A stretch of DNA of 64,000 bases from NCBI RefSeq assembly GCF_018595675.2, contig NZ_CP092333.1, forward strand, positions 1,698,001 through 1,762,000. The letters run 5' to 3'. Position numbers and translations under genes: made by a program. This document shows, one piece after another, positions 1-42,014 of the stretch (its first letter is position 1; every line of letters begins with the position of its first letter). The DNA is from Flavihumibacter fluvii. Its GTDB lineage: Bacteria > Bacteroidota > Bacteroidia > Chitinophagales > Chitinophagaceae. The notes under the pieces are model-generated. The model was not told the DNA's origin and searched no databases. It was given only the letters and a program-made list of their open reading frames with translations.

Positions 1-1928
1 GGCCACTCCTGCAGGTGCCAACTCACAGACGGAGCGTCATATACACCTGCTGTTGCCAGGGAAATAAGGTTCCATAGAGCATTCCTTTCAGGCTTTTCAA
101 TTTCCCAATGGTCTTTAATTACCCATTGGTATTGCGCCTTCAATTCGGGTGTGAACGCATAGTTGACCAAAGGCCAGTAAGTTAAAAATGCCATTTCATC
201 ATCCGAGTGATTCCAGCCACCAGAGCCAAGGTCAATACCCATTCTTATCGTGCCGGGTGTTTCATGAATTTTGGTATAACTCACCAGCATATTCTTCACA
301 TAACCATGTTCGTTGATGAGACGATATGCTTCAGTTTTGTATTTTTCCTTACCGGTTAATGTATATGCCAGTTGCAGCCCAGCCAATATATGGGCACTAC
401 CCAATTTCCTATCTTGTACAGATTCAGGAAAGGAATTTATATACTCGGGATTCCATCTTCCCCATAATGTGGGCTTGCCGTCAGCATCCACGAAATAATA
501 ATTGTTGTCAATGATATGGGTCAGAATCTTATCAATGAAATCAGCTACCCTCTTGTGTTCTGATTCTGTTTCCGCAACCATTTCATGCAATACCGATGCA
601 ATGAAAATATAACCCACAAATTCATCACTGCTGGTCGTACCCTTCCACTCCCACTCCGGGTCCTGTGAATTACGCCATGCCTCAGGATCTGATACCTTGA
701 AGCCTTTGCGTTCAAATGTGCGGGATGGGAATCCTTTTAACGGATTGATAGAAATGATCCTTTCAAAAGCTTCAAAGGCTTCCCACGCGTAACGTTTGGC
801 ATTTTTATCGCCGGTTACGGAATATCGGAAGGCCTGGCTGCCCAGGTAAAAGGCCGACCATAAACCATCATTATCGGTATCGGTCATTTTGGCTGTGGAA
901 AGATCTCCAGGTGCAGTCAGGGTTACATTCGAAATGAAGCCATAGCGGATATGCCGCTTCCTGATATTATCCTGGAACAGGTTCGCTTTATCCAGTAATG
1001 TATAATTGAGGAATTCAATTTTATTTAATCCGCTTTCAGATAATACATAGGCGTTGCCTTTGCTGTCTGCTGCAAGGCTGATCACCTTATCATCCAGCAG
1101 CCACCTGCGGCTGGCATAGTATCGGTATTGTCCGGATGCCTCTTTCATGAATGCACCAGCCGGTGTTCCTGCCCATAATTTGTTATTGATAATCTGCAGG
1201 CTATTCACGTTCTCCACAGGCAATTTCGTTTGCAAAACAAAACTGGAATCACCGTTCATTAAATTAATACCATAATATCCTTTTGCAGTACTGATCACTA
1301 TTTCATTTTCCCGAAAGGCCATTGCCTGCAGGCCATTGCCTTTGTGCAGGATGGTAAATTGATTTCCTGTAATTGAATATACTGCGCCAGCGCTCAGCGC
1401 ATAAAAATTTCCATTGAACGCCTGGATGCTGGTGATCTTATCTGCTGGCTTTTTTAGTTCCTGCAGTTTTCCATTCCTGAAAATTGCGGCGGCACCTTCT
1501 CCAACTAAGGCTACCCTGCCATCTGCAGCTACAGCTAACTGTTCAAATTTCCCTTTAGGGAATACACCATAAGGAACGCCGGCATAACCATTGGTCAGCC
1601 ATTTGTCTGCATAGAGATAAAATAAATGTCCGGACCCTTCCTGAATAGAAATATCTACAGGAATTTTATCTGCAAGGGGTGTATAACGCTGGTCTTTTAC
1701 TAACCCTTTTTCATCGGTGCGGTATACTCCTTTTGGGGTAAGTACATAGGCAATATCGTTATAATCTACAACGACTTTTTTCAGTGGTGTACCTTTTAAG
1801 GCTTCCGGTAAACTGTATTTAACGGACTTAGCCTGGGTATATGGTTGATCATCTCCAGGTGTTGCTTTTACTTTGAGTGAAGACAATAAAAGTAAAGATG
1901 CTGTGAACAGCAAAGTCGATTTGAACAT
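1..1928 (-). CDS. Secreted beta-propeller protein with C-terminal alpha-helical domain (3' end beyond window)
   Basis: The reading frame runs open from an ATG at 1928 to the left edge, so about 642 residues are visible and the C-terminus is missing. It begins with a signal peptide, then seven weak propeller repeats of the Reg_prop style (for example segments reading GNAYVLSESGL). From about residue 330 an alpha-helical domain follows. The protein is a clear paralogue of the 740-residue protein at 11598-13820: both share RHIR, TDNDG/DDNDG, SSDE, DxDG, a W-x-x-WNP/WSP motif, YxxTGKxKY and YRLIN/LRLIN-K/E-HY in the same order. It lies downstream of susD and may be co-transcribed, with a hairpin at 1965-1999 between them. 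Function is unknown. A glycan-binding or glycan-cleaving surface or periplasmic protein is my inference from fold and context. Confidence 0.85.
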   Translation of the reverse strand, partial: MFKSTLLFTASLLLLSSLKVKATPGDDQPYTQAKSVKYSLPEALKGTPLKKVVVDYNDIAYVLTPKGVYRTDEKGLVKDQRYTPLADKIPVDISIQEGSGHLFYLYADKWLTNGYAGVPYGVFPKGKFEQLAVAADGRVALVGEGAAAIFRNGKLQELKKPADKITSIQAFNGNFYALSAGAVYSITGNQFTILHKGNGLQAMAFRENEIVISTAKGYYGINLMNGDSSFVLQTKLPVENVNSLQIINNKLWAGTPAGAFMKEASGQYRYYASRRWLLDDKVISLAADSKGNAYVLSESGLNKIEFLNYTLLDKANLFQDNIRKRHIRYGFISNVTLTAPGDLSTAKMTDTDNDGLWSAFYLGSQAFRYSVTGDKNAKRYAWEAFEAFERIISINPLKGFPSRTFERKGFKVSDPEAWRNSQDPEWEWKGTTSSDEFVGYIFIASVLHEMVAETESEHKRVADFIDKILTHIIDNNYYFVDADGKPTLWGRWNPEYINSFPESVQDRKLGSAHILAGLQLAYTLTGKEKYKTEAYRLINEHGYVKNMLVSYTKIHETPGTIRMGIDLGSGGWNHSDDEMAFLTYWPLVNYAFTPELKAQYQWVIKDHWEIEKPERNALWNLISLATAGVYDAPSVSWHLQEW

Positions 1929-1964
1929 GAGAACTTTAAAATTTAAGTTGAATCGATGGATTAT

Positions 1965-1999
1965 AGCACAACCTGCCAGAAGGCCTGACAGGTTGTGCT
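1965..1999. repeat. Inverted repeat (11-bp perfect arms) between susD and propeller gene
   Basis: The arms AGCACAACCTG and CAGGTTGTGCT pair perfectly around a 13-base spacer that is itself partly self-complementary. It sits in the 104-base gap after the susD stop. No T-run follows on either strand, so a simple intrinsic terminator is doubtful. It may be an mRNA-stabilising or partial-terminator hairpin that sets SusCD expression above that of the downstream gene. Confidence 0.6.
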
Positions 2000-2032
2000 G
2001 TTATCCAATATATATCTGTCTGATTAATACAA

Positions 2033-3685
2033 TTATTGCAATAACCACATTTTGGAATACTCATTATCTACAGCTGGTGAAAGTGCGGAAACACCAGCAT
2101 CATAGGCATCCCGGTTTTGACCTAGCTCAGCACCTGGATAACGGTACCGGCTTGGAAATTCATAGGTACTCAGGTTGCCGTTATTGAACATATCAGGCAA
2201 ATGGGTCCGGCGCACATCCAGGTAAGCTTCTGTTGAAACGAAGAACAAGCCCAACCATTTCTGGTCTGCAATTTTCGCCAGTTTACCGGCATTATCAGCA
2301 GGCAATGCAATGCTGCTCTGTGACAGGTAGGTAGTGATATCTTCACTTGATACACCCCAACGCTTCAATGAATATTCAATACCTTTCCTGTAATAAGTAT
2401 CTGCATCTCCAGAAATCATTCCTTTAACAGCCGCTTCAGCCAGGATGAATTCTACCTCATCACTTTGCATCACCATAGCTTTTAACAAAGGATGACTGTT
2501 TTGCCTGAAGAGCTGAGCGTATTTGGATACTTTAAAGTTTCCAACAACACCACCATCTGTTGTGTTGTAATGTCCGTTTCCATTTTTATAGTCACCGGGC
2601 ATACCAGCAATAAAGCCGGCATAAACCTTATTGGAATCCAGGATATTAGCAGACTGGGCTGCGATTTCAGATTTACTACGATCGATAAATTCCCAGGTTG
2701 AACTGTATGTGAATCCATTAGGATCAGTTGTTGTAAAACTTTGGCCATCCTGTGCCTTGTTGCTCGTCCATGGCTGTTCAATCGGCGCAATCCAGACCTT
2801 CATCCTCGGATCATTCAGGCTGGCCAGTTTATCAACCAGGGTTTTACAAGGTCTTCTTCTATCGTACTCGCTATAATCTACCCAGTTTAAAGTTCCACCT
2901 TTCCAGGAATCATCCTTGGTTGAACCGATATAAGAAATAGATGCATTATCATCAGCTTCAGTGAAAATTGGTGTAACGGCCGGATTGGCTAAAATGGCTG
3001 CCATCTTCGCGCCAGCATCGGGAATCTTCGCAGATGCACGCATCAGGAGACGAAGTTTCAGAGAATTGGTAAACTTCTGCCATTTAACCTTATCACCCGC
3101 GAACATCAGGTCATAAGTATTGGACAGGGGATCAGTACCAGCTGCGATAAGGGCATTTGCATTGTCAAGTTCAACCAGCAGGTGGTCATAAATATCAGAC
3201 TGGTGGTCATAATTTGGATACAAAATACCTTCCCTTCCTTTCAAGGCTTCAGTGTAGTAGATATCACCATAAAAATCAGTGATATAAGAAAACAGCAGAA
3301 CCCTGAACGTTGTAAAGATGCCCTCATGGGACTTTGATCCCCTTTCCTGGGTAAGGCGTATGGAACCATCTATCAGTTTCAGGATATTGAGCGCAGCATA
3401 CAAGTCATCTGATGGCTGTTTGAAACCTGAGTATGTATTATCACCACCCTGGAAATTCCGTTGCATATATTGAACAGCAGATGGCAGTTTGCTATTATCA
3501 TAGCCAAAGCCCTGGTAAAAGAGGCTGGTTTGCTTGATAACAGAGGACAACAGGAACGGATCGTTCACAGACTCAACTGCATCCAATTGCTGCTTCTTGT
3601 CATATTCCCTAAGGGCATCTTTGCTACAGGATGCCCCGGTAGCAAGGAGTACAACAGCTAATGATTTAAGAATTAAAGATTTCAT
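2033..3685 (-). CDS. SusD/RagB-like outer-membrane nutrient-binding lipoprotein
   Basis: A 550-residue lipoprotein with a hydrophobic leader and lipidation cysteine at residue 20 (GASC). The body matches the SusD-like_2 group: an early conserved helix region (LYAALNILKLIDG), the FGDIYYTEAL segment and a C-terminal tail with PGAE and the RRTHLP region. SusD-family proteins cap the SusC barrel and bind the incoming oligosaccharide or peptide at the cell surface. It starts 28 bases after the susC stop, the usual SusC-SusD order, so the two are surely one complex. Substrate cannot be read from sequence. Confidence 0.93.
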   Translation of the reverse strand: MKSLILKSLAVVLLATGASCSKDALREYDKKQQLDAVESVNDPFLLSSVIKQTSLFYQGFGYDNSKLPSAVQYMQRNFQGGDNTYSGFKQPSDDLYAALNILKLIDGSIRLTQERGSKSHEGIFTTFRVLLFSYITDFYGDIYYTEALKGREGILYPNYDHQSDIYDHLLVELDNANALIAAGTDPLSNTYDLMFAGDKVKWQKFTNSLKLRLLMRASAKIPDAGAKMAAILANPAVTPIFTEADDNASISYIGSTKDDSWKGGTLNWVDYSEYDRRRPCKTLVDKLASLNDPRMKVWIAPIEQPWTSNKAQDGQSFTTTDPNGFTYSSTWEFIDRSKSEIAAQSANILDSNKVYAGFIAGMPGDYKNGNGHYNTTDGGVVGNFKVSKYAQLFRQNSHPLLKAMVMQSDEVEFILAEAAVKGMISGDADTYYRKGIEYSLKRWGVSSEDITTYLSQSSIALPADNAGKLAKIADQKWLGLFFVSTEAYLDVRRTHLPDMFNNGNLSTYEFPSRYRYPGAELGQNRDAYDAGVSALSPAVDNEYSKMWLLQ

Positions 3686-3713
3686 ATAATGAATGAGGTA
3701 TTAAAAAATAATA

Positions 3714-6700
3714 TTAAAAATCAAGAGAAACTTTGAAACCATAAGAACGAATGCTAGGCAATGTTGCTCTCAGCACGCCTAATCCTGTTCCTACTCCACT
3801 AAAAGCGGACTCAGGATCTTCATTTCTGCCAGATTCATTCCACTGAAACAGGTTCCTTCCAATAAGCGAAAGCGTTAAATTATTCAAGTGATATCTGCTA
3901 AGCTTGTTAGGTGGAATGGAATAAGCCAGTGAAATTTCACGCATTTTGAAATTGGTAGCACTGTATGTCCTGGTAGCTGCAAAATCCCAGATTACATCAC
4001 CATAACTATTGTATGGGATCTGGTAAAAGGTGTTATTAGGATCTGCACCATTCACGATATAATCAGCATCACCTGGAGTATCACCAGTGAAATTCGGATT
4101 AACAAATACACCCCTTGCAAAGCTGGCATCATTCCAGTCTGAACGTTGCCCGTCATTATTGGTATTGATGGCCTCATACTGGCTGGAACCAGCTGCAGGC
4201 CAAGGCTGACCGCCGTACTCAGCATCACGTCCACCCTGCCAGTAAGGATTGTTTGGTCCCGAACCCAGTGTGGTTGCTGATCTTCCGTTTGATTCCATGT
4301 ATTGTTGGTTAACAGATACATATTTTCCACCTTTCCTGAAGCTACCCACAAGGTTCAGGGCAAATTGTTTGTAACGTAAAGTTGTGTTGAATCCGAGGAT
4401 ATAATCGGGATTGAAATTACCTAATTGGCCCCTGTCTCTTTCATCACCTGACACCTGGAATTCACCACCTTCACTATCCAGGATTGGCAGGCCAATGTAT
4501 TTTCCTTCTTTAACCCTTAAGATCGGGTTTTGCTCGTAAATATTACCGATTTCTTCACCAACTGCGATTTTAACCACAGTTTTTCCATCATAACCTGCAA
4601 ATGCATATCCATTTGGTGCAAATTGATCAGAAAGGCGTGTGATCGTGGCTTTATAATGGGTAAAGCTGCCATTTATTGTCCAATTCCAGTCTTTTGTCCG
4701 AACCGGAGTAAGGGTTAAGCCCATTTCATATCCTTTGCTCCGTACATCACCGATATTGGTTAACATGCCATCATAACCAGTTCCCAATACAGTAGGTATT
4801 TTGTCGATCTGATCTTTCTGGTCTTTAATGAAATAAGTGAAGTCAAATTTAAGCAGGTTTTGCAGCATCCAAACATCCAATCCGGCTTCCTGAGTAATGG
4901 AGTGCATGGGTTTGATATTAGGATCCACCAATGATGCATTGATGCTAACTGTTTTTGCAGCGCCCCAGTTACTTGGATCATAGGAATAGGTATCCACAGA
5001 CCTTTGCCTGATAAGTCCATTACCAACATCAGCCCAGGCAAGACGACCTTTTACGAGGTTGAAAGCAGCTGGTAATTTGAAGGTTTCGGAAACCACCCAA
5101 CTTAATGATGCAGATGGGTAGAAATAATTGATTTTCTCTTCATCCAGGATTCCTTTCCAATCATTACGGCCAGTAATATCCAGGAATACCTGATTGGCAT
5201 ATCCGATACTTGCACTACCGTACAAACTATAGGTCTGCGTTGTACCCCAGGCAGAACTTGACGTGAGTGTACCAGGCATTGCATTACTAAGTGTGAACAG
5301 TTCCGGAGTAGCCAATTTACCAGCAGTAGCTTCACTGGAATTATTATTTCCATACTGGTAGTTGGCACCACCTGCGGCATTGATGGAGAATTTACCGTAG
5401 TCCTTATTAAAAGTTAAAATCAGGTCGGTTGTATACAGCCCGGTACTATTGGTACCGGTAGTATACATACCATCCCCATTCTTAAACTTATCCTTCATGG
5501 CTGTTTTACCCCATGACTGGCGATATTCATATTGCTCTTTTACATTCTCCATACCTGTGCGAACCATTAGGGATAATGGTTTGCTCAATTGCCAGTCTAA
5601 TTGAATCTTACCAAAGAAATTATCACGACCAAAACGGTTGATTCTTTCATTGGTTATCCACCATGGGTTATCCGTTCCCACATCAACACCATTGTCTCTC
5701 ATGATAGCACCATTCTGCTGGATACCTTCGTAGCCAGTCAGCCAGTAATTAGTCATCTCGGAGAGAGGTTGCAGGTTGCTCGGTAAATTGAACAATAACC
5801 CGTTAAGAACACTGTTTGAGCCAACGGTATTCGCCTTATTTGGAGAATAGGTATTGATATAGCTTGCACTAACAGAAATCTTGATTTTACTTGTCAGCCT
5901 GTAATCAGTATTCAGGTTAATTGATTTCTGGTTAGTTTTTGTATTTGGCATCACACCTTTATTATTCAGCCCACCCAATGATAAACGGAAAGAACCTTTG
6001 TCGTTATTGCCGTAAACACTGATACTATTAGAGACGGTGTTACCTGTTTGCAAGTAAGCCTCCATCCTGTTCTCAAATGAAGAAACCATTGGTTTTGTGA
6101 GCCATGCCTGTTGTTTAACATCCCAATAGTCGCTGGTAAATGAACCATCCAGTGTAGGTCCCCAGGTATCGGTGTTATCATATTGCCATTCAAAGGCTCG
6201 TTCGCCCTGGCCGGCAATTTGTTGCTCCTCCAGGAAGTTGTAAGCTTTATCCCAAACAGCAGAGGTATTGAAGCTAACGCCAAGTCCTTTTTTCTGGCCT
6301 CTGCCAGATTTTGTTGTGATCATAACAACCCCGTTTCCACCTTCTGCACCGTATAGGGCACCAGCGCTACCACCTTTAAGAATAGTAACATTGTCAATAT
6401 CTTCAGGGTTCAATTGTGACAGGATATTTCCAAAATCAACACCATTCTTAGACGTGAAAGTCTGGGCACCAACTGGAATTCCATCTACAACATATAAGGG
6501 CTGTCCACTGATGGCAACGTTTGCGTTACTTTTTGTTGGCATAGCCGTGGTACCCCTGATGTTTACCAGCACTGAAGAAGTAGGATCCGAGCTGAGATTG
6601 GTGAAATTTACACCACTCACTTTACCATCCAATGATTTCAGAACGTTAGGGTTACCAGCCTTTACAAGGTCTTCTGCTTTTACTTCACCAACAGAGTAAG

Positions 6701-7412
6701 CCAATGACTTTTTACTGCGGCTAATGCCTAATGCAGTTACCACCACACTGGAAAGTTCAGTTGTGGACAGTTCAAGAACAATATTGATATCTGACCTTCC
6801 GGACACCTGTATTTCCAATGGTTTGTAACCAACATAACTGAATACAAGTATTGCTTCAGAGGATGCAACATTTATACTGAAACGACCGTCAGAAGAGGTT
6901 GTTGTGACATTTGAGGACCCTTTTTCAGTAACTGTAACATTAGCCAACGGACCAGCTTTGTCTTTCACCGAACCCCTCACAGGAAAATCAATGGGGGCGG
7001 CTATTTCGTTTTTTATGAAAGAACCTTTAGGTTCCGGGATTTGCTTGATGATGTAAACATTACTGACTTTTTCAAACATTAATCCGGCCGAACCCAATAC
7101 CTTTTTCAGTAAAAGCTCGGGGTCCTTTTGCTTGCTTTTATCAATATCTATATCAGTCACCCTGATCTCTTTTAAGGAAGCTGCCTGGTAACTGAAATAC
7201 AAATTGAAAGTCCGCTGGAACTTTTGCATGAATTGCTCCAGTGTAATGGTTTTAGCACCCATATCCGGCCCTGTATCTTCGGGAGCATATAAAACTTCCG
7301 TAGCACCTGGTGCTAAATTTTGCCCAATTGTTTGTAAGGGCGACAGCAACATGATACCTATTGGTATCAGCAAGGCTGTAAAGATGGTCAAATAAGCATG
7401 TTTCATTTTCAT
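3714..7412 (-). CDS. SusC/RagA-type TonB-dependent transporter with N-terminal STN signalling domain
   Basis: A 1232-residue outer-membrane transporter. In order: signal peptide (1-30), STN domain (about 55-125), CarboxypepD_reg-like domain (about 145-215), a candidate TonB box (SSVVVTALGI, 221-230), plug (to about 375, ending GNGVVMITTKSG) and a long beta-barrel ending in F. Length is usual for SusC proteins bearing an STN domain. The STN domain normally contacts a FecR-type anti-sigma factor, and here fecR ends 25 bases upstream with an ECF sigma gene before that. I therefore infer substrate-triggered cell-surface signalling that induces this operon. Of the two starts MKMK, the first (7412) is used here. 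Confidence 0.95.
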   Translation of the reverse strand: MKMKHAYLTIFTALLIPIGIMLLSPLQTIGQNLAPGATEVLYAPEDTGPDMGAKTITLEQFMQKFQRTFNLYFSYQAASLKEIRVTDIDIDKSKQKDPELLLKKVLGSAGLMFEKVSNVYIIKQIPEPKGSFIKNEIAAPIDFPVRGSVKDKAGPLANVTVTEKGSSNVTTTSSDGRFSINVASSEAILVFSYVGYKPLEIQVSGRSDINIVLELSTTELSSVVVTALGISRSKKSLAYSVGEVKAEDLVKAGNPNVLKSLDGKVSGVNFTNLSSDPTSSVLVNIRGTTAMPTKSNANVAISGQPLYVVDGIPVGAQTFTSKNGVDFGNILSQLNPEDIDNVTILKGGSAGALYGAEGGNGVVMITTKSGRGQKKGLGVSFNTSAVWDKAYNFLEEQQIAGQGERAFEWQYDNTDTWGPTLDGSFTSDYWDVKQQAWLTKPMVSSFENRMEAYLQTGNTVSNSISVYGNNDKGSFRLSLGGLNNKGVMPNTKTNQKSINLNTDYRLTSKIKISVSASYINTYSPNKANTVGSNSVLNGLLFNLPSNLQPLSEMTNYWLTGYEGIQQNGAIMRDNGVDVGTDNPWWITNERINRFGRDNFFGKIQLDWQLSKPLSLMVRTGMENVKEQYEYRQSWGKTAMKDKFKNGDGMYTTGTNSTGLYTTDLILTFNKDYGKFSINAAGGANYQYGNNNSSEATAGKLATPELFTLSNAMPGTLTSSSAWGTTQTYSLYGSASIGYANQVFLDITGRNDWKGILDEEKINYFYPSASLSWVVSETFKLPAAFNLVKGRLAWADVGNGLIRQRSVDTYSYDPSNWGAAKTVSINASLVDPNIKPMHSITQEAGLDVWMLQNLLKFDFTYFIKDQKDQIDKIPTVLGTGYDGMLTNIGDVRSKGYEMGLTLTPVRTKDWNWTINGSFTHYKATITRLSDQFAPNGYAFAGYDGKTVVKIAVGEEIGNIYEQNPILRVKEGKYIGLPILDSEGGEFQVSGDERDRGQLGNFNPDYILGFNTTLRYKQFALNLVGSFRKGGKYVSVNQQYMESNGRSATTLGSGPNNPYWQGGRDAEYGGQPWPAAGSSQYEAINTNNDGQRSDWNDASFARGVFVNPNFTGDTPGDADYIVNGADPNNTFYQIPYNSYGDVIWDFAATRTYSATNFKMREISLAYSIPPNKLSRYHLNNLTLSLIGRNLFQWNESGRNEDPESAFSGVGTGLGVLRATLPSIRSYGFKVSLDF

Positions 7413-7437
7413 CCCTGTTTGGTTTGGTTTGGTGTCG

Positions 7438-8466
7438 TTACTGTTGAATGATTAACTGGTTGTTCCTAAGAACTATGTCTATATCCAAAGTCCTGGAAAT
7501 GATATTTATAAAAGCCTTCAGGTCTGTAACCGGAATTACAGCATTTATTTTCAAGTTCTTCATCTTTGGGTCACTAAAACTTGATTCAACACCGTAATAG
7601 GCATAGATCAGCGTGGTGATTTCAGCCAGTGATGTTGAGGAAAAATGCCACCTGCCATCAGACCAGGCCTGGTATATACGGGTATCTGCAGTTGATTTGG
7701 TAAACGCTTTTTTACCCGGGTCAAATTGCACCTTTTCACCTGGCAACATTAAAACCGGTTTTTGTGGATTATTGATTTCACTCACTTCAACTTTACCTGA
7801 AGTCAGCACCACTTCTGTAGCTACGCTTCGCGCATTCACATTAAATTCTGTTCCCAATACAGATACCAAAAGGCCATTGGACAGTACAGCAAACTTGCGA
7901 TGGTCTGCTTTTTTCCTGATCCTGAAAAATGCATTCCCGATTAACTGAACTTCCCGGACTGGAGAAATAGCGATATCACTGGAGTAAGTGAGGGAAGAAT
8001 TGGCATTCAGGATTACCTCAGAACTATCACCCAATAGTATTGTCCTGGTTTCATCATCTCCTGTTTTTTCGACGATGGAATAACTGCTTTGGGGGGCCAC
8101 TTTGAAATAATTCACTGCTATAAAGACCAGGCCGGCAGCAACAGCAGCAATCTTCAACAGGCGTAAGCCATTCCTCTTCCACACCTGTGCAACCGGCACT
8201 GCTGGCATGATCTGGTCAAATATTTCCTGCTTCAACGAAGATTTTTCTTCAGCTGTTAAAGGTTCAAATTCATGTTTGTTGAAATTACCCAGAACCAATT
8301 CCCTTGCCACTCGCACATTATCCTGCTGCTCAGGATATAAATGCAGGTAAGTTTCCCAGAAAAGTTCTTCTTCCGGCTGGGCAAAAATTACCCATTGCTG
8401 AAAAAATGCATCTTCTGCTAACTCCTCAGGGCTATACCCATCATAAAAGAAATAATCTGTATTCAC
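7438..8466 (-). CDS. FecR-family anti-sigma factor
   Basis: A 342-residue inner-membrane protein: cytoplasmic N-terminal part (1-100) that would bind the sigma factor, one membrane segment (about 103-121), a periplasmic FecR domain (about 136-235, including GDSSEVILNANSSL and LGTEFNV) and a C-terminal DUF4974 region. The start is a GTG at 8466. The frame has an in-frame stop 36 bases upstream and no other methionine until residue 87, and the early residues are typical of the family. It sits between an ECF sigma gene and an STN-bearing SusC, the classic three-part transmembrane signalling arrangement. Confidence 0.93.
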   Translation of the reverse strand: MNTDYFFYDGYSPEELAEDAFFQQWVIFAQPEEELFWETYLHLYPEQQDNVRVARELVLGNFNKHEFEPLTAEEKSSLKQEIFDQIMPAVPVAQVWKRNGLRLLKIAAVAAGLVFIAVNYFKVAPQSSYSIVEKTGDDETRTILLGDSSEVILNANSSLTYSSDIAISPVREVQLIGNAFFRIRKKADHRKFAVLSNGLLVSVLGTEFNVNARSVATEVVLTSGKVEVSEINNPQKPVLMLPGEKVQFDPGKKAFTKSTADTRIYQAWSDGRWHFSSTSLAEITTLIYAYYGVESSFSDPKMKNLKINAVIPVTDLKAFINIISRTLDIDIVLRNNQLIIQQ

Positions 8467-8528
8467 TATTACCTTGAGAATAGTTCCGGAGGTGGATACT
8501 CAAAAAATGCAGGATTTATTTTTAATGT

Positions 8529-9107
8529 TTAAACACAAAGCATCAGAAGTAACAGGATGTACATCAAATTGCGCAATTGATGGATCGTCCGGAAGGCCAG
8601 GTTATTAACGGATTGATAGTTGATGCTTAATTTTTCAGCAATTTGCTCATAACTGAGCCCGTCCGTGTAATGGAGTTGTAATATCTGTTTTTGCCGCTTG
8701 CTGAGCATTGAAATGGCCTTTTGCAGTTTTTTCGCGGTATCCTTTTCAAGATCTCTTGAAATGATGAGGCCCTCGATATTAAGGTCTTCAGAGATGTAAA
8801 AATCGTCCAGCTTTACATGAAAAGTGGAGTTTTCCTTTTTCATTTTTTTTAGCGTAACAGACAACAGCACCTTGGACAGATACCCCTGGGAATATTGTAT
8901 GTCGGAAAGAGTCATCCGGTATTGCCACAATTCAAGAAATACCTCCTGCACAGCATCCTTCGCTAATTCCCGGTTATTGGTCAGTCGGCAGGCTTTTTCA
9001 AATAGTTTGTCCACGTATTTATCATACAAATAACCCAATGCATCCGGATCCCCATTTTTGAGGTTGTTCCAATAGATGGCATCAATGTTTTTTATATTTT
9101 CTACCAT
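8529..9107 (-). CDS. ECF RNA polymerase sigma factor
   Basis: A sigma-70 family protein of about 192 residues with region 2 (YDKYVDKLFEKA through AVQEVFLELW) and region 4 (LSKRQKQILQLHY followed by a helix-turn-helix, GLSYEQIAEKLSINYQSV). The frame can be extended to a TTG at 9131, but the ATG at 9107 (MVENIKN) gives a more usual N-terminus. A TACATTTG element (9121-9114, minus strand) matches the Bacteroidota -7 consensus but lies very close to the ATG. The protein should direct transcription of the fecR-susC-susD genes that follow it. Confidence 0.92.
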   Translation of the reverse strand: MVENIKNIDAIYWNNLKNGDPDALGYLYDKYVDKLFEKACRLTNNRELAKDAVQEVFLELWQYRMTLSDIQYSQGYLSKVLLSVTLKKMKKENSTFHVKLDDFYISEDLNIEGLIISRDLEKDTAKKLQKAISMLSKRQKQILQLHYTDGLSYEQIAEKLSINYQSVNNLAFRTIHQLRNLMYILLLLMLCV

Positions 9108-9186
9108 GGTAATCAAATGTAACAACAGCAATCCTGTTTATTGCATCTATACAAATCGTTAAACTAAATGTAACGTAAATATTGTA

Positions 9187-10368
9187 TTAAAATAATTTTA
9201 CCACAACATGCTTGATGGATTCGCCGCCTTTATCAACCTGGTAAGAATAAGTGACGTGCAATAATCCATCTGGGGACTGGATTAGCGAAGGATAGGAAAA
9301 ACTTCCTTTGCCAGGTGCCTCAATTTCAAGGTAATGTTTTGATTTCCAACTCTTACCTTCATCATCCGATACAAATAAACCCAACCTGTGCCTGCCGTCC
9401 TCAATATCATTCCCCACAAATGCCCATCGTCCATCTTTTAATACCAGTAATTCAACGCTGGCAGTATTGGGAATGGATGATTTTTCAGCGGGTGTCCAGG
9501 ACTCGCCCTGATCGCCTGACTCACTCACCTGGACCCGTGGTGGCGCATCCCCGTTGTCGCGCATGAAAGCAACAATATGCCCGTCCTTTTTCAATGCCAG
9601 CGCGGGTTGTACATTGCCCCGGCCAACTATCGGCAAGCTTGCATGCCAGGTTTCACCATCATCATCTGATATGGCAAGTAAAGAGAAATTGAAGCCATCA
9701 GAATACAATGGAAGCAGTATCCGACCGCCAGGTAATATCAAAGGTTTGATGCGCGTCATCCAACCAATGCTGCGTTTCCGGATGTCATTACTGGCTTCCA
9801 GGATCACGTCATCATAGGCAGGTGCATAAGCAGACCAACCGATTCCACGCTCTGGCATCACTTTGAACTTTTTAGCAACTTCTGATACAAAATTGTCATT
9901 TGGCTTCAGGAAGAGATTGTCCTGCCAACTCCATTTTGGGGCACCGGGCTTTGAAAAATCGGTGGATGTTTTAATTCGTAAAACAGAAGATTCCCAGCGA
10001 TTGGCAGTAACTGCAATCCAAACCAAAAAAAGTTTTCCGGACTTGTTCAGGAATAGCACCGGATTGCAATCGGGAATATTGTATGTGTCTGCCAAAACAA
10101 ATGGCGTACTCCAAACTTTGCTGCCTTTTGTAAGGCGCGCACCCATAATCTTCACATCGTCAGCAGTGCGTTCACCACTGCCCATAAACCAGGCACAAAG
10201 AAAATCGCCATTAGGCAGGCTTACAATGCTGCTGCCGTGCGTATGCAGGCTTTGGGGCGGAAATAAAAGCTGGCTCTCAACAGGGGTAAGCTTTTGCAGA
10301 TCAGCCTGCGCATCTGCCTGCAGTACAATCGCTAAACCCAATAAGAAAATAATGACCTGTTTTTTCAT
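9187..10368 (-). CDS. Secreted BNR-repeat (sialidase-like) beta-propeller protein
   Basis: A 393-residue exported protein (cleavable leader ending ADAQA). It has three Asp-box repeats, SDDDGETW, SGDQGESW and SDDEGKSW, and resembles the BNR_2/COG4692 putative neuraminidases. The N-terminal arginine motif (F/Y-R-I-P) typical of true GH33 sialidases is not evident; the nearest segment reads HGSSIVSLPNG. Some related propellers cut other glycans, for example rhamnose-uronate bonds in GH145, so sialidase activity should not be assumed. It lies 55-80 bases upstream of the sigma factor on the same strand and diverges from the acyltransferase gene, so it likely belongs to this glycan locus. Confidence 0.82.
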   Translation of the reverse strand: MKKQVIIFLLGLAIVLQADAQADLQKLTPVESQLLFPPQSLHTHGSSIVSLPNGDFLCAWFMGSGERTADDVKIMGARLTKGSKVWSTPFVLADTYNIPDCNPVLFLNKSGKLFLVWIAVTANRWESSVLRIKTSTDFSKPGAPKWSWQDNLFLKPNDNFVSEVAKKFKVMPERGIGWSAYAPAYDDVILEASNDIRKRSIGWMTRIKPLILPGGRILLPLYSDGFNFSLLAISDDDGETWHASLPIVGRGNVQPALALKKDGHIVAFMRDNGDAPPRVQVSESGDQGESWTPAEKSSIPNTASVELLVLKDGRWAFVGNDIEDGRHRLGLFVSDDEGKSWKSKHYLEIEAPGKGSFSYPSLIQSPDGLLHVTYSYQVDKGGESIKHVVVKLF

Positions 10369-10467
10369 GATGCATGTATTAAGAATAGCATTAAGCTAAA
10401 ACTAAAATCTGAATTCAGGTTTCATAAAAATTTATTGATGGTATTGCTATTCTTCTATCTTTAATTC

Positions 10468-11598
10468 ATGCAGCTATCACAAAATACAGGGCTATTAGCA
10501 AAGCAAAGCAACCGTTTATTAGCATTGGATATTTTCAGGGGTTTAACAATGGCCGCTATGATCCTGGTAAATGACCCGGGCATTGAAACCCACGTCTATG
10601 CACCATTACAGCACACAGTGTGGAATGGTATAACCCCGGCTGATTTTATTTTTCCTTCCTTTATTTTTATCGTAGGTATCTCAATTGTCCTGTCCTCTTC
10701 AAAGCAATTGGAAAAAGGATTCACTAAAAAACAGATCGTAAAAAAAGTATTGAAACGTGCCATTATACTATTCATATTAGGCGTATTGCTCAGTGTGCTC
10801 CAAAAATTTGATCTCTCAAGAATCAGGATCACAGGGGTATTGCAACGTATCTCGATTGTATTCCTGTGTTGCTCCCTACTTCATTTATATTCCAGCCGAA
10901 AGTTCCAGGTGAGGCTGGGTATTTTTATTCTGATCGCCTATTTCTTACTCCTGACACTTGTGCCGGTTCCGGGTTATGGCTATGCCATACTTGAACCCGG
11001 ACAAAACCTTGCTGCCTGGTTTGATACGCTCATCCTACCGGGAAAATTGTATAACGGCAATTGGGACCCCGAAGGCATATCCAGCACTTTCCCGGCAATA
11101 GTTACCGGTATTGCCGGTATGCTTGCAGGTTATTTGATACTGGGCAATACATCCACCGAACGAAAAATAATCTGGTTGTTTTTTACAGGATTTGCATCTT
11201 TCACAATAGCCAATGCATGGAACTGGTTCTTCCCGATCAACAAGAATTTATGGACCAGTTCTTTTGTATTGTATACAGCCGGACTCGACTGTATGATCCT
11301 GGCGTTCCTGTATTTCTGGGTGGATGTATTGGGTTATTCAAAATGGGCAAAATTTGCCGTGGTATTTGGTTCCAACGCTATTGCCGCATATCTCGCCTCC
11401 GAAATTTTCTATGACCTCATCTATTTTAAAGTGGGTGGCCAAACAGGATATAGCCTGAACGAGCGTATCATCAATGCAACTCTTCCAGCCGGGCTATCTC
11501 CAGAAATGCTTTCACTTTTATGGGCATTATTATATGTCGGTTTATGCTTCATTCCTGTTTACTGGTTGTATCAAAAGAAAATATTCATTAAAATATAA
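10468..11598 (+). CDS. Heparan-alpha-glucosaminide N-acetyltransferase-like membrane protein (DUF5009 type)
   Basis: A 376-residue polytopic membrane protein with about ten hydrophobic segments. The N-terminal LALDIFRGLTMAAMILVN and the QHTVWNGITPADFIFPSFIF region are hallmarks of the HGSNAT/NagX family, which moves an acetyl group from cytoplasmic acetyl-CoA to a sugar amine across the membrane. His49 in QHTVWNG aligns with the active histidine of human HGSNAT (established for the family; alignment by eye). Its stop (TAATG) overlaps the start of the next gene by one base, indicating translational coupling with the propeller protein. Acetylation of an imported or periplasmic amino sugar is inferred. 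Confidence 0.88.
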   Translation: MQLSQNTGLLAKQSNRLLALDIFRGLTMAAMILVNDPGIETHVYAPLQHTVWNGITPADFIFPSFIFIVGISIVLSSSKQLEKGFTKKQIVKKVLKRAIILFILGVLLSVLQKFDLSRIRITGVLQRISIVFLCCSLLHLYSSRKFQVRLGIFILIAYFLLLTLVPVPGYGYAILEPGQNLAAWFDTLILPGKLYNGNWDPEGISSTFPAIVTGIAGMLAGYLILGNTSTERKIIWLFFTGFASFTIANAWNWFFPINKNLWTSSFVLYTAGLDCMILAFLYFWVDVLGYSKWAKFAVVFGSNAIAAYLASEIFYDLIYFKVGGQTGYSLNERIINATLPAGLSPEMLSLLWALLYVGLCFIPVYWLYQKKIFIKI

Positions 11599-13820
11599 TG
11601 GACATGAGATTTTTCTTCCTTCCGATAGTATGCTTTGTTTTACCCATTTTAACAAAAGCACAGGGAAAACCATTTACAGATACTGCGTTCTGGCAGGAAT
11701 ACCATATCCCCTATCCATTTTCACATAACATCATCGATAAGGAAGTTCGTAGCATTGCCGTTGACAATCAAAACAATGTATGGGTCGCTACAAAATCCGG
11801 CATACACGTAAAAAAATCTAATGACATTTCCTGGTCTGCCCCGATAGCAACAGCTGCTGGTCCAGCCTATGTTGTAGTAACAAATACAACAGGTGATGTT
11901 TATATGGGCACATGGAACGGTGTATACCAGTTAACAAATAATACACTGGAATTATTGACCGGAACTGATGGACCAATTTCTGCTTTATGCCTTGCAGACG
12001 AAGGAGTCTATGCAGCCGGTCCAAAAGGGATATGGATACTGAATGGCCGTACTTTCTTAAAACTAAATTTTCCTATCGCAAAATCAGTAAGGAAATTGAT
12101 TTCTGACGGGCAAAAAGGCATATGGGTAGCCACCGATGTTGGACTATACCATTGCACCCCAAATGGTTCAAGGCATTTTGTAGATACCAGTTTCCTTATA
12201 AGCGCATATGTGAAAGGGCTGGTCATTGACAACCGGAATTCACTCTGGGCTGGCGGACTGGGTGGTGTGAGTATCCTCAACAAAGAAAAAAAGGAACGTG
12301 AATTACGCCCAAAGGATGGGATTCCATCCCGTTTCGTCAGTTGTCTTACGAAGGATGCTGATGGCAGGATTTGGGTAGGCACAGAAATGGGCCTGGTTAG
12401 GTTTTCAACCAATGGCAGGCGAAGCCTGATATTCAGCAATCGTTGGTTAATCGATGACCATATCAATGATATTGCATTTGATGCAGCAGGAAATGCCTGG
12501 ATCGCAACCACCAAAGGGGTCAGTGCCATCATGAAAAATAAAATGACCCTGGCGTCCAAACAGGATTACTTCTATGATGTACTGATGAAAAGGCATATCC
12601 GGGCGCCCTGGATTGCCGGTCAGTGTCACCTGAATATTCCAGGGGATGTGAATTCATGGCAACCGGAAGATGATGATAATGATGGCGAATTTACCGGCAA
12701 CTACCTGGCAATGGAATCATTCCGTTATGGCGCAACAAAAAGTGCAGATGCCAGGGAAAAAGCAAAAAAGGCTTACCACTTTTTACAACAACTGGAAGAA
12801 GTAACAGGCGGTGATGGCTATTTCGCCCGGACCATCGTTCCGGTTGGTTGGGGTGATCGTGTGCATGATCAAAACAGGACATATACACCCGAAGAGATAG
12901 CTGAAGAAATGGTGAAAGATCCCCGTTACAAACCTGTTGAACAAAGGTGGCGTAAATCTTCAGATGGCCAATGGCTCTGGAAAGGCGATGCCAGCAGTGA
13001 TGAATGGTGTGGCCATATGATGGGCTATTACTTTTACTATGAACTGGCGGCAGACGAGACAGAAAAAGCACTGGTTCGATCCCATGTGTCCAAAATTGTT
13101 GACCACCTTATTGCCAATGATTTCAATATGATGGATATCGACGGCACACATACGCACTGGTCTGTATGGTCACCCAATTCCCTGAACCGTGATCCGGAAT
13201 GGCAACCCGACCAATTCCAGAATTCAATGGAAATTCTCACCTTCCTGAAACTGGCTTATTATGTAACCGGGAAAATGAAGTACCAGGAACATTACCTGCG
13301 CCTCATAAACAAGGAACATTATTTAGACAATATGGCAAAGGTGACCCAGCAAAATCCCGCCTGGTTCATTTATTATGATGTAACCATGCAGGCATATCTC
13401 TATCCCATTTTATTACATTGTGAAAAAGACCCAAAACTCCTGCAATTTTACAGGCAGCACCTGGAGCATTGGATGGAAAGGAGAAAGAATGACCAGAATC
13501 CACTGATCAATTTCCTGTATTGTTATTCAACGCAGAAACAGCGGGAATTAAATGCTTCCATACAATTCCTGACAGATACACCACTGGATCTGGTCGACTG
13601 GAATATTGATCACACTAAAAGGGAGGATATTTCGGTGGTTAGTAAACCTGTACTGGATGAATTACAGGTTGATCAGTTACCACCTCCCAGCATCAGGCAG
13701 GTGGTGCGATGGGACAAAAATCCATGGACTGCCGTTGGTGGGTCACCGGATATGGAAAGGGAACCAGTATTTTGGTTATTACCATATTGGATGGGCAGGT
13801 ATTTGAACATGATCAAATAG
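11598..13820 (+). CDS. Secreted seven-repeat beta-propeller fused to alpha-helical toroid-like domain
   Basis: A 740-residue exported protein (leader 1-21). Residues 48-315 hold seven Reg_prop-like repeats (for example QNNVWVATKSGI at 58-69, KGIWVATDVGL, DGRIWVGTEMGL and GNAWIATTKGV), suggesting a seven-bladed propeller. From about 330 to 740 comes an alpha-rich domain with an acidic patch (PEDDDNDGEF, 356-365), SSDEW (466-470), DIDGTHTHW (513-521), YYVTGKMKY and LRLINKEHY. The repeated helix pairs with conserved Asp, His and Trp recall alpha/alpha toroid glycosidases and lyases, but I cannot place it in a named family. It lacks the sensor-kinase half usual for Reg_prop proteins. It is a paralogue of the gene at 1-1928 and is coupled to the upstream acyltransferase gene. 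Confidence 0.88.
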   Translation: MDMRFFFLPIVCFVLPILTKAQGKPFTDTAFWQEYHIPYPFSHNIIDKEVRSIAVDNQNNVWVATKSGIHVKKSNDISWSAPIATAAGPAYVVVTNTTGDVYMGTWNGVYQLTNNTLELLTGTDGPISALCLADEGVYAAGPKGIWILNGRTFLKLNFPIAKSVRKLISDGQKGIWVATDVGLYHCTPNGSRHFVDTSFLISAYVKGLVIDNRNSLWAGGLGGVSILNKEKKERELRPKDGIPSRFVSCLTKDADGRIWVGTEMGLVRFSTNGRRSLIFSNRWLIDDHINDIAFDAAGNAWIATTKGVSAIMKNKMTLASKQDYFYDVLMKRHIRAPWIAGQCHLNIPGDVNSWQPEDDDNDGEFTGNYLAMESFRYGATKSADAREKAKKAYHFLQQLEEVTGGDGYFARTIVPVGWGDRVHDQNRTYTPEEIAEEMVKDPRYKPVEQRWRKSSDGQWLWKGDASSDEWCGHMMGYYFYYELAADETEKALVRSHVSKIVDHLIANDFNMMDIDGTHTHWSVWSPNSLNRDPEWQPDQFQNSMEILTFLKLAYYVTGKMKYQEHYLRLINKEHYLDNMAKVTQQNPAWFIYYDVTMQAYLYPILLHCEKDPKLLQFYRQHLEHWMERRKNDQNPLINFLYCYSTQKQRELNASIQFLTDTPLDLVDWNIDHTKREDISVVSKPVLDELQVDQLPPPSIRQVVRWDKNPWTAVGGSPDMEREPVFWLLPYWMGRYLNMIK

Positions 13821-18376: not shown

Positions 18377-19678
18377 TCAACGTTTAAATTCAATAAGATA
18401 CTCGGAAACATAAGGGCTCTTGCCATCATACTGGTCCTTGAAAAACAGGCGGGCTTTTTGTCCGAGGTTAAGTGAAGTATATTTATTTGCCTTGTCTTCG
18501 GCATTATTAACGGGTTGCAGGGAGGGATACCACACAATATGACCTGGCTTTTCCAATAATAGTTTTGGCTGCGTCCATTGCTGGGAATTATTGCCCATAC
18601 CCAGGTCAGCATTTGGATTGAAGGAGATATAAATACCACCACCTTTCCAGGAGGGGCCTTCTGCCCGGGCCATCAGCATGACCCAGCAATTCAGGTAATT
18701 ATTCCAACTCACCGATGGTCCCCAATAATATTTTGCAGTAGGTGATGAAGCCGGTCCGCCGCCTTCCTGCAAGGGAATCTGTATGGAACTGACTGGGATA
18801 CCTATACCATTAGACGGTTCATCAAACCTTTTTCCATTCCACCTTTTTGCTTTACCCACCGGATTGTCGAGGTCAGCAAGCGCGATCCTGGCCATACTGA
18901 TACATTGTCCAGCCCATTCAAAAGCTGTATCATATTTTTCCGGTTCATATATACCGGGATAACCATATTCGCCATAAAATATATACAGGTAATCACCATT
19001 GGCCACTGCAGATGGATCGCCAACTCCACCGGCAAAATTGATCCCGTTATTGTGCGGCCGAAGGATCATCCGCGGCTGGAGGTCTTCCAGGATGATTCCC
19101 CGGTCAGACCAGCTTCGTCCGCCATCGATGGATTTCATGATACCGATACGGCACACTGCTGTTTTAGTTTCCGGGCCTTTTAAACCCTGCGGCCAGTTGA
19201 CATCTTTATAGCCTTCCCCGGTAGTTGAATCAAACGGCAAAGTGGAAGGATAATTTTCATTGTGGTAGAGCGCAAACAGTGTTTTACCGGAAGTATCTTT
19301 TTTATCCTGAAAAAGTGTTTCAAACCAAACAGCACCGTGCAATCCGGGGTGGTTGACAGGCGCATTGGCCGGCATGATGGGTTCTGTAAATTCTGCTGAT
19401 GCCCTTCTGAAGGTTTCGTCCACCGTATTACCACTGGCATATTTCAATTCATGTGATTCACCCCACAAAGGGTCTTCACCATATTTTCCGGGAAATATCC
19501 TGAACGTATCCCCAACCCAGACTGTGGCCATATTACAATCCACAAATGAATTGAATACAAATGGTTCGGTTTCCACCAAAACGGCTTGAAGACCTGGTTT
19601 AGAAGGGGATTTACATGCTGAAAAAAACAGGAAACTAAGCGATAAAATGCTTTGGCAGGTTCGTTTTAGTAATTGCAT
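18377..19678 (-). CDS. Lipoprotein with predicted beta-propeller glycosidase-like fold
   Basis: A 433-residue lipoprotein (leader with FFSAC lipidation site at about residue 22). It contains one clear Asp-box-like motif (SIDGGRSWSDRG) and repeated short strands with Gly-Asp-Pro and Trp-rich turns (GGVGDPSAVANGDYLYIFYGEYG, given as GGVGDPSAV and YIFYGEYG), typical of five-bladed glycosidase propellers. I do not recognise a named family. It ends five bases before the GH97 start and is likely in the same transcript, which suggests a role in glycan binding or cleavage at the cell surface. Confidence 0.8.
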   Translation of the reverse strand: MQLLKRTCQSILSLSFLFFSACKSPSKPGLQAVLVETEPFVFNSFVDCNMATVWVGDTFRIFPGKYGEDPLWGESHELKYASGNTVDETFRRASAEFTEPIMPANAPVNHPGLHGAVWFETLFQDKKDTSGKTLFALYHNENYPSTLPFDSTTGEGYKDVNWPQGLKGPETKTAVCRIGIMKSIDGGRSWSDRGIILEDLQPRMILRPHNNGINFAGGVGDPSAVANGDYLYIFYGEYGYPGIYEPEKYDTAFEWAGQCISMARIALADLDNPVGKAKRWNGKRFDEPSNGIGIPVSSIQIPLQEGGGPASSPTAKYYWGPSVSWNNYLNCWVMLMARAEGPSWKGGGIYISFNPNADLGMGNNSQQWTQPKLLLEKPGHIVWYPSLQPVNNAEDKANKYTSLNLGQKARLFFKDQYDGKSPYVSEYLIEFKR

Positions 19679-41597: not shown

Positions 41598-41640
41598 TCC
41601 AGCGTTTGGATGTAATGCAATTGCCTTAATTTAAAAAAAA

Positions 41641-42014
41641 TCTTCTCTCCTGTAAGCCGGATTCTGTTCCATCCAAAGATGGCCGCTATCATTTATCTGG
41701 CCGTGTCATTGCTGGCACGATCTAGCTGCCTACCCTCCGGCGTTGGCCCCTTTCGGAACCATTGGACGAGCCGCCCTCAACCACCGGTATACATGGCATT
41801 TCAGCATACAAGGTTTACCCCCATTGAGCATTGCTACCCAATGCCGTAGGCTCTTACCCTACATTTTCACCTTTTCCCCGGTTGCCCGAAGTAGTTATTT
41901 TCTGTGGCACTGTCTGTAAACGGTTACCCGCTCCCCGGCTGTTAACCGGTATATTGCCCTGTGCTGTCCGGACTTTCCTCGACACTTTCATGCCGCGATA
42001 GCGCGGAGAGAAGA
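41641..42014 (-). ncRNA. rnpB: RNase P RNA (bacterial class A)
   Basis: The minus strand carries the conserved GAGGAAAGTCCGGAC near the 5' end (about 41972-41985) and ACAGAATCCGGCTTAC near the 3' end (about 41654-41669). The outer P1 helix pairs TCTTCTCTCC with GGAGAGAAGA at the two limits given. A run of eight T follows the 3' end on the minus strand (41640-41633), fitting intrinsic termination. It processes tRNA 5' ends. The ends are set from P1 pairing and may be off by a few bases. Confidence 0.95.

Follow-up and report, generated by a model that had tools for sequence, protein, structure and literature searches.

Paired propeller-toroid proteins flanking a SusCD locus of Flavihumibacter fluvii: candidate glycan-active enzymes outside the named families

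Introduction

What do two paralogous proteins, each joining a propeller to a helical toroid, do on either side of a glycan-uptake locus? This question is raised by a 64,000-nucleotide stretch of the Flavihumibacter fluvii genome (contig NZ_CP092333.1, positions 1,698,001 to 1,762,000; hereafter the window), which comes from a 5.0 Mb assembly in a single contig (G000). The two proteins, P1 and P2, bracket an operon for SusC, SusD, a FecR-type anti-sigma factor and an extracytoplasmic function (ECF) sigma factor, and no description of a propeller-plus-toroid architecture was found among the papers listed by literature searches, judged by titles and the openings of abstracts. A preliminary description of the window had proposed a new class of glycan-active enzyme. 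Based on the predicted fold, the conserved residues, a natural fusion to the glycoside hydrolase family GH20 and the neighbouring genes, we give an even chance to the reading that P1 and P2 are glycan-active toroid enzymes outside the named families. Toroid proteins of this kind are a likely source of new carbohydrate chemistry.

Results and discussion

P1 and P2 are paralogues that share a predicted propeller and a predicted toroid

P2 (A-type, 740 aa) is encoded at 11598-13820 on the plus strand, as seen from its open reading frame, Pfam and a structural model, and P1 (B-type) at 3-1928 on the minus strand, with its last 79 codons beyond the window edge. The full P1 gene, taken from a genome stretch reaching past this edge (L009:9764-11929), encodes 721 aa. 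The two proteins are 29% identical over 540 aligned residues (E = 2e-61), confirming the earlier claim of a paralogous pair that brackets the SusCD/FecR/ECF-sigma operon.

Related loci were collected by scanning one genome per species with P2 as the query, a scan that covers close relatives only. The 40 relatives obtained, all named as Bacteroidota, hold an A copy by design, because P2 was the query; their stretches reach at most 10 kb to either side, and several contigs are shorter. Alignment A1 was built from P1, P2 and 33 of these relatives (L029, L031, L037, L040, L041, L044 and L049 were left out), and alignment A2 comprised 42 of 73 toroid stretches, L049 contributing none. In a tree of 81 toroids, the A side (40 A rows and L088) was separated from the B side by a long branch with full support, a third type (B2) formed a clade within B, and the row nearest to P2 came from Flavihumibacter. 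A and B are two old clades. Of 395 genomes sampled from the phylum, 7 carry the family, as do 2 of the 15 from the genus; our genome is included in both counts.

The P2 propeller (residues 31-316; 11688-12545, plus strand) was recognized by Reg_prop matches, by the model and by Foldseek. Reg_prop was the sole Pfam family above its cut-off in P2 (2.2e-16, three stretches), and the AlphaFold model (mean predicted local distance difference test score [pLDDT] 89.2, predicted TM-score 0.89) places 27 strands in residues 31-316, a pattern we read as seven predicted blades. P1 gave no Pfam match; a sub-threshold Reg_prop match occurred in three of ten full-length B-type proteins, P1 being one of those without. 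However, the A and B propeller profiles matched at 99.5% (E = 9e-23, 284 columns), and on this profile evidence the N-terminal region of P1 (about residues 27-305; 1014-1850, minus strand) is probably a propeller of the same type. Of the seven Reg_prop-like repeats previously claimed for both proteins, those of P2 are supported by Pfam and the strands; in P1 the profile match points to a propeller that Pfam does not recognize.

The best 50 Foldseek hits of the whole P2 model were dominated by propellers. The sensor domain of BT4663 (PDB 4a2l), from the Reg_prop hybrid two-component sensors, carries a propeller of the same repeat type and is among the nearest solved relatives. In contrast to these sensors, P1 and P2 have one propeller with the toroid behind it, and the Pfam scan found no histidine kinase domain after the propeller in either protein, as the preliminary description had stated. 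A weak propeller likeness was also found to PorZ (NF052228; PDB 5m11), a lipopolysaccharide-delivery protein; the match was below cut-off (48 of 260 bits, E = 0.0044), and PorZ shows no similarity to the P1/P2 toroid. Ten matches were found in plasmid records; none spans more than 41% of the query, and all fall within the propeller region or immediately after it. Such propellers are labelled 'two-component regulator propeller' in these records. Since a propeller of this kind here sits on a probable enzyme, the label may hide other enzymes.

A hydrophobic run of at least 10 residues was present within the first 70 residues of 24/30 A proteins and 25/26 B proteins, and a lipobox-like motif in three A and two B proteins. 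Judged by their hydrophobic N-termini alone, P1 and P2 are probably exported.

The predicted toroid weakly resembles carbohydrate-active folds but matches no named family above cut-off

The P2 model is helical from residue 318 to 735, and no family match was obtained for this toroid (residues 318-740; 12549-13817, plus strand). Because propellers swamped the Foldseek list of whole P2, the P1 toroid (residues 306 onward, clipped by the window edge; 3-1013, minus strand) was folded by itself (model mbb7daba6d516, pLDDT 77.7). Twelve main helices follow in order in each model (the P2 model lists 16 helices in all, that of P1 15), and in the P1 toroid folded alone the first and last helix pair. 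We read these helices as six hairpins in a predicted (alpha/alpha)6-like ring, with weak Foldseek scores. The top Foldseek hits of the P1 toroid model were the GH9 structure 6dht (1.5e-3), cellobiose 2-epimerases, BT_3782 and GH76, with GH88 at rank 41, so that the nearest hits of the predicted fold are carbohydrate-active proteins. The toroids of GH9, cellobiose 2-epimerase, GH76 and GH88 have the helical-ring topology predicted for P1 and P2, with low TM-scores.

The toroid passed no Pfam or NCBIfam cut-off and had no sequence relative in the PDB (best E = 0.58). Comparison by hhalign with six toroid families (13 PF00759 sequences for GH9, three PF07470 sequences for GH88 and one for PL5; one AGE row, L154, was empty) gave 70% for GH127, 24% for PL5 over 25 columns, 11% for AGE, 0.4% for GH9, 0.3% for GH88 and <1% for GH76. 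Negative controls (GH20, SusD, NagX and BNR_2) gave 0.1-1.6% in the first hhalign round. The links measured among accepted toroid families were 81% (GH76-AGE), 37% (AGE-GH127), 15% (GH76-GH88), 8% (GH127-GH88) and about 1% for two; GH9-GH88 (1.3%) is among the links missed. Given that hhalign misses most links between toroid families, the low scores to GH9, GH88, GH76 and AGE are weak evidence of difference.

The GH127 signal (E = 4e-5 as a single comparison) exceeds five of the six links between accepted toroid families, and at the profile level it is as good as the better of them. P1 and P2 might be very remote members of family GH127 or of its clan, and Pfam GH127 (PF07944) was matched at E<=0.1 in 6/35 full-length rows and in 4/42 toroid rows when hits up to E 10 were allowed (best E = 0.001). 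However, only the N-terminal half of the domain aligns (183 columns, 13% identity), PF07944 gave no match at E<=1 in P1 or P2, and none of the best 50 of 478 Foldseek hits was named GH127. Moreover, GH127 enzymes use a zinc-bound catalytic cysteine, and no cysteine was found among the invariant or near-invariant toroid columns. We consider GH127 membership highly doubtful. A confident match to a characterized family, which would have spoken against the preliminary description, was not found in Pfam, NCBIfam, the PDB, Foldseek or hhalign. The proposal made there, a new class of glycan-active enzyme, is partly supported: the toroid is unnamed by the searched libraries, lies in a glycan-uptake locus and has relatives fused to GH20. 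The class itself would be putative, and the best remote signal, GH127, covers half of the domain.

Invariant residues may favour catalysis over binding

In 52 aligned toroids, 23 columns were invariant, 20 of which hold polar, charged or aromatic residues. They include, in P2 numbering, D468, D594, D664, D677, E720, R335, R411, R675, N530, W521 and W524, and H333 was kept in 51 toroids. Alignment A2 has 31 invariant residues of polar or aromatic type, and 23 of them fell in the loops before each hairpin's first helix, as we drew these loops on the P1 model; since the loop region already accounts for 223 of the 422 positions, the excess on the rim is only modest. Among the shared motifs reported previously, WxxWxP (both Ws and the P invariant), SSDE (first S and D invariant) and the later DxDG (opening D, D481 in P1, in 51/52) are conserved, whereas RLIN varies among family members and TGK is, in our judgement, a common hairpin motif. 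SSDE lies at residues 433-436 of P1 (621-632, minus strand) and 466-469 of P2 (12993-13004, plus strand).

In addition, a putative calcium-loop motif, Dx[DN]xDG, is newly noted here in both proteins. It reads DTDNDG in P1 (865-881, minus strand) and DDDNDG in P2 (12669-12686, plus strand), and in both it would form a calcium loop where helix 2 of the toroid begins. A degenerate DNA pattern for the motif had only two matches in the 64 kb, those of P1 and P2, with 0.37 expected; 4/100 shuffles reached two, for a pattern chosen after the motif had been seen. The motif was present in 40/40 A rows and 28/33 B rows (cut and full P1 both counted), all five misses being B2. The alpha/alpha toroid of E. 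coli YgjK (GH63) is described as carrying a Dx[DN]xDG calcium loop (PMC3123361). The likeness is one of motif, and the motif is given for about 7% of YgjK homologues (PMC3123361), against its near-constant presence here.

These residues bear on the main rival explanation, namely that P1 and P2 are non-catalytic glycan-binding or scaffold proteins, with propeller and toroid both binding while GH20 cuts. Sensor domains such as BT4663 are the nearest solved relatives of the propeller, and all five B2 rows have Q in place of E in SSDE and lack the calcium motif, which speaks for this rival. On the other hand, 20 polar, charged or aromatic residues kept in 52/52 toroids are, in our judgement, more than binding usually needs, and 27/40 stretches (including L049, with broken frames) retain A alongside B. 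Pure binding is somewhat unlikely in our estimate, and we prefer an enzymatic role.

Fusions and neighbours in related loci point to amino-sugar glycans

The strongest functional clue is an in-frame fusion of GH20 to A in the order GH20-propeller-toroid, found at L015:8003-12229 (1408 aa) and L045:7952-12172 (1406 aa). GH20 is the beta-N-acetylhexosaminidase family. In four loci, a single chain some 1500 aa long carries two B-type units (L015:12243-16697, L026:12227-16771, L045:12189-16715 and L047:12260-16861).

Neighbours were counted by BLAST clusters over the 40 relatives, kinship ignored and the G+C-rich stretch L093 left out of the neighbour reading; 76 of 147 listed neighbour proteins and 12 from other loci were scanned (set A3, 88 proteins). 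SusC was found in 29 stretches, SusD in 27, both together in 26 and an ECF sigma factor in 19. NagX was found in 14, GH20 in 11 plus the two fusions, MurQ in 7 and a NagP-like major facilitator superfamily (MFS) transporter in 6. In L017, L027, L031, L047 and L048, the NagP-like transporter and MurQ lie on one strand and DeoR, SusC, SusD, GH20, A, B and NagX on the other, and most of this order recurs in L026, L038 and L043. MurQ is the etherase of N-acetylmuramic acid (MurNAc) 6-phosphate. The MurQ of L031 reached 315 bits on NF003915, where the cut-off is 168, and also passed NF009222, but stayed short of the equivalog cut-off of TIGR00274. The NagP match of L027, clipped by the locus edge, fell short of its equivalog cut-off as well. 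MurNAc salvage in Tannerella comprises MurT-MurK-MurQ, with a MurQ-type etherase beside a transporter gene as in the related loci, and the passages concerned mention no such toroid protein (PMC5790795).

Other arrangements were also observed. In Emticicia, Dyadobacter and Telluribacter, A and B are separated by a BNR_2 protein, joined by YdjC in Emticicia and one Dyadobacter. Mutually related proteins of about 800 aa occur in three toroid loci (L016:4215-6671, L085:136-2562 and L086:11399-13729); the L016 protein has a weak GH20 domain-2 match and the L086 protein none. A DUF3748/PD40 protein directly follows the B gene in 9/40 loci (e.g., L020:17001-18353).

A proposed mechanism and its weight

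Taken together, the GH20 fusion and the presence of MurQ, NagX and NagP nearby restrict the likely substrates to amino-sugar glycans, a range supported by this gene context and small enough for the function to be tested on few substrates. As exported two-domain enzymes, P1 and P2 would use the seven-bladed propeller as a platform for glycan binding or positioning. The (alpha/alpha)6 toroid would bear the active site on the rim that holds most of the invariant Asp, Glu, Arg, His and Trp residues, and the calcium loop (DxDNDG) ahead of helix 2 would stabilize it. Along with GH20, they may hydrolyse an amino-sugar-rich glycan captured by the neighbouring SusCD pair, with A (P2) and B (P1) perhaps acting on different linkages of the same glycan, while NagX could re-acetylate glucosamine for GH20 and for uptake.

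Several observations weigh against an enzymatic toroid of this kind. P1 residues 348-403, which hold several invariant residues, have pLDDT <50. The P1 toroid had no Foldseek match in the PDB at E<=0.001, and the query TM-score was at most 0.42 among the best 50 of 478 hits. In Foldseek, the P2 propeller is also similar to an enzyme, virginiamycin B lyase, and catalysis could therefore sit in the propeller instead of the toroid. Neighbour names derive from scanning one or two proteins of each cluster, and the Emticicia, Dyadobacter, Telluribacter and Runella stretches have no GH20 of the clustered kind. In the genome of F. fluvii, a NagX-MurQ-NagP-like trio (L169:5084-8265; G000:C1:2813083-2816264) sits beside a divergent GH20-like protein, some 1.1 Mb away from the locus in the window. 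The NagX, MurQ and NagP of this trio are 63, 72 and 65% identical to the relatives' counterparts, and a second MurQ is also present in the genome.

The glycan possibly contains MurNAc, as MurQ in 7/40 loci would suggest. A bolder version would make P1 and P2 a calcium-dependent (alpha/alpha)6 glycosidase family, Reg_prop-guided and GH20-coupled, that degrades MurNAc/GlcNAc glycans of other bacteria as toroid-type exo- or endo-muramidases; if true, this would be a TonB-dependent locus for eating bacterial cell walls. No peptidoglycan amidase or muramidase was among the 25 families listed of the 108 matched by the 88 neighbours, and the NamZ of the genome is located elsewhere, so MurNAc remains a lead. 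We judge the muramidase version unlikely.

Genes of the window locus

The minus-strand run between P2 and P1 encodes, in order, a sialidase-superfamily BNR_2 protein (9187-10368; homologues in 10/40 related loci), the ECF sigma factor (8529-9131; Sigma70_r4_2 and r2), the FecR-type anti-sigma factor (7438-8466; Pfam), a SusC-like TonB-dependent receptor (3714-7412; CarbopepD_reg_2, Plug), a SusD-like protein (2033-3685; SusD-like_2, 4e-76) and P1. The Pfam matches to SusD, SusC, FecR and the ECF sigma factor agree with the SusCD/ECF-sigma locus described before, and the adjacent SusC and SusD (2033-7412) mark a polysaccharide utilisation locus. Divergent from this run, on the plus strand, a NagX-like transmembrane glucosamine N-acetyltransferase (10468-11598; HGSNAT_cat 4e-10, NF046061 4.5e-59) precedes P2, its stop overlapping the P2 start by one base; its 200 bits are below the NF046061 equivalog cut-off of 480.

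The location of P1 3' of the ECF, FecR, SusC and SusD genes on the same strand, together with the propeller type, would suit kinase-less sensors or signal-input proteins that report substrate to FecR/ECF. However, an ECF gene is present in only 19/40 stretches, the GH20 fusion is natural, and FecR systems receive their signal through SusC. A sensor role is very improbable.

Beyond P1, past the window edge, lie genes for HUMPS-family, Zn-dehydrogenase, SDR and xylose-isomerase-like TIM barrel proteins, and further on for YhcH-family, DHDPS-family, GH20, Gfo/Idh/MocA and ApbE proteins. This GH20 carries the HxGGDE motif. The DHDPS- and YhcH-family proteins (L009:4613-6300) have export-signal-like N-termini by eye, which is unusual for such enzymes.

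The same operon raises the possibility that P1 and P2 are polysaccharide lyases or uronate-acting enzymes with PL5/PL8/GH88-like toroids, acting on a glycan in which hexosamine alternates with uronate. The best model for the HUMPS-family protein was 3-hexulose-6-phosphate synthase, with 3-keto-gulonate-6-phosphate decarboxylase also matched, all below cut-off; the DHDPS-family, SDR and Zn-dehydrogenase genes, and UxuA in 2/88 scanned neighbours, point in the same direction. Furthermore, the polysaccharide lyase Smlt1473 (PL5) stood at Foldseek rank 50 for the P1 toroid, and Alginate_lyase was matched (E = 0.035) in 1/42 toroid rows. Against this, hhalign gave the very low GH88 score from three sequences and a PL5 score from one sequence over 25 columns only, and a HUMPS gene was nearby in our genome and 1/40 relatives. 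We rate lyase or uronate activity as quite unlikely and retain a glycan-active toroid outside the named families as the preferred reading.

Other features of the window

A 433-aa protein without a Pfam match at E<=1 is encoded beside GH97 at 18377-19678, and its homologue also adjoins GH97 in Flavihumibacter (L010). An RNase P RNA (class A) was located at 41637-42014 on the minus strand.

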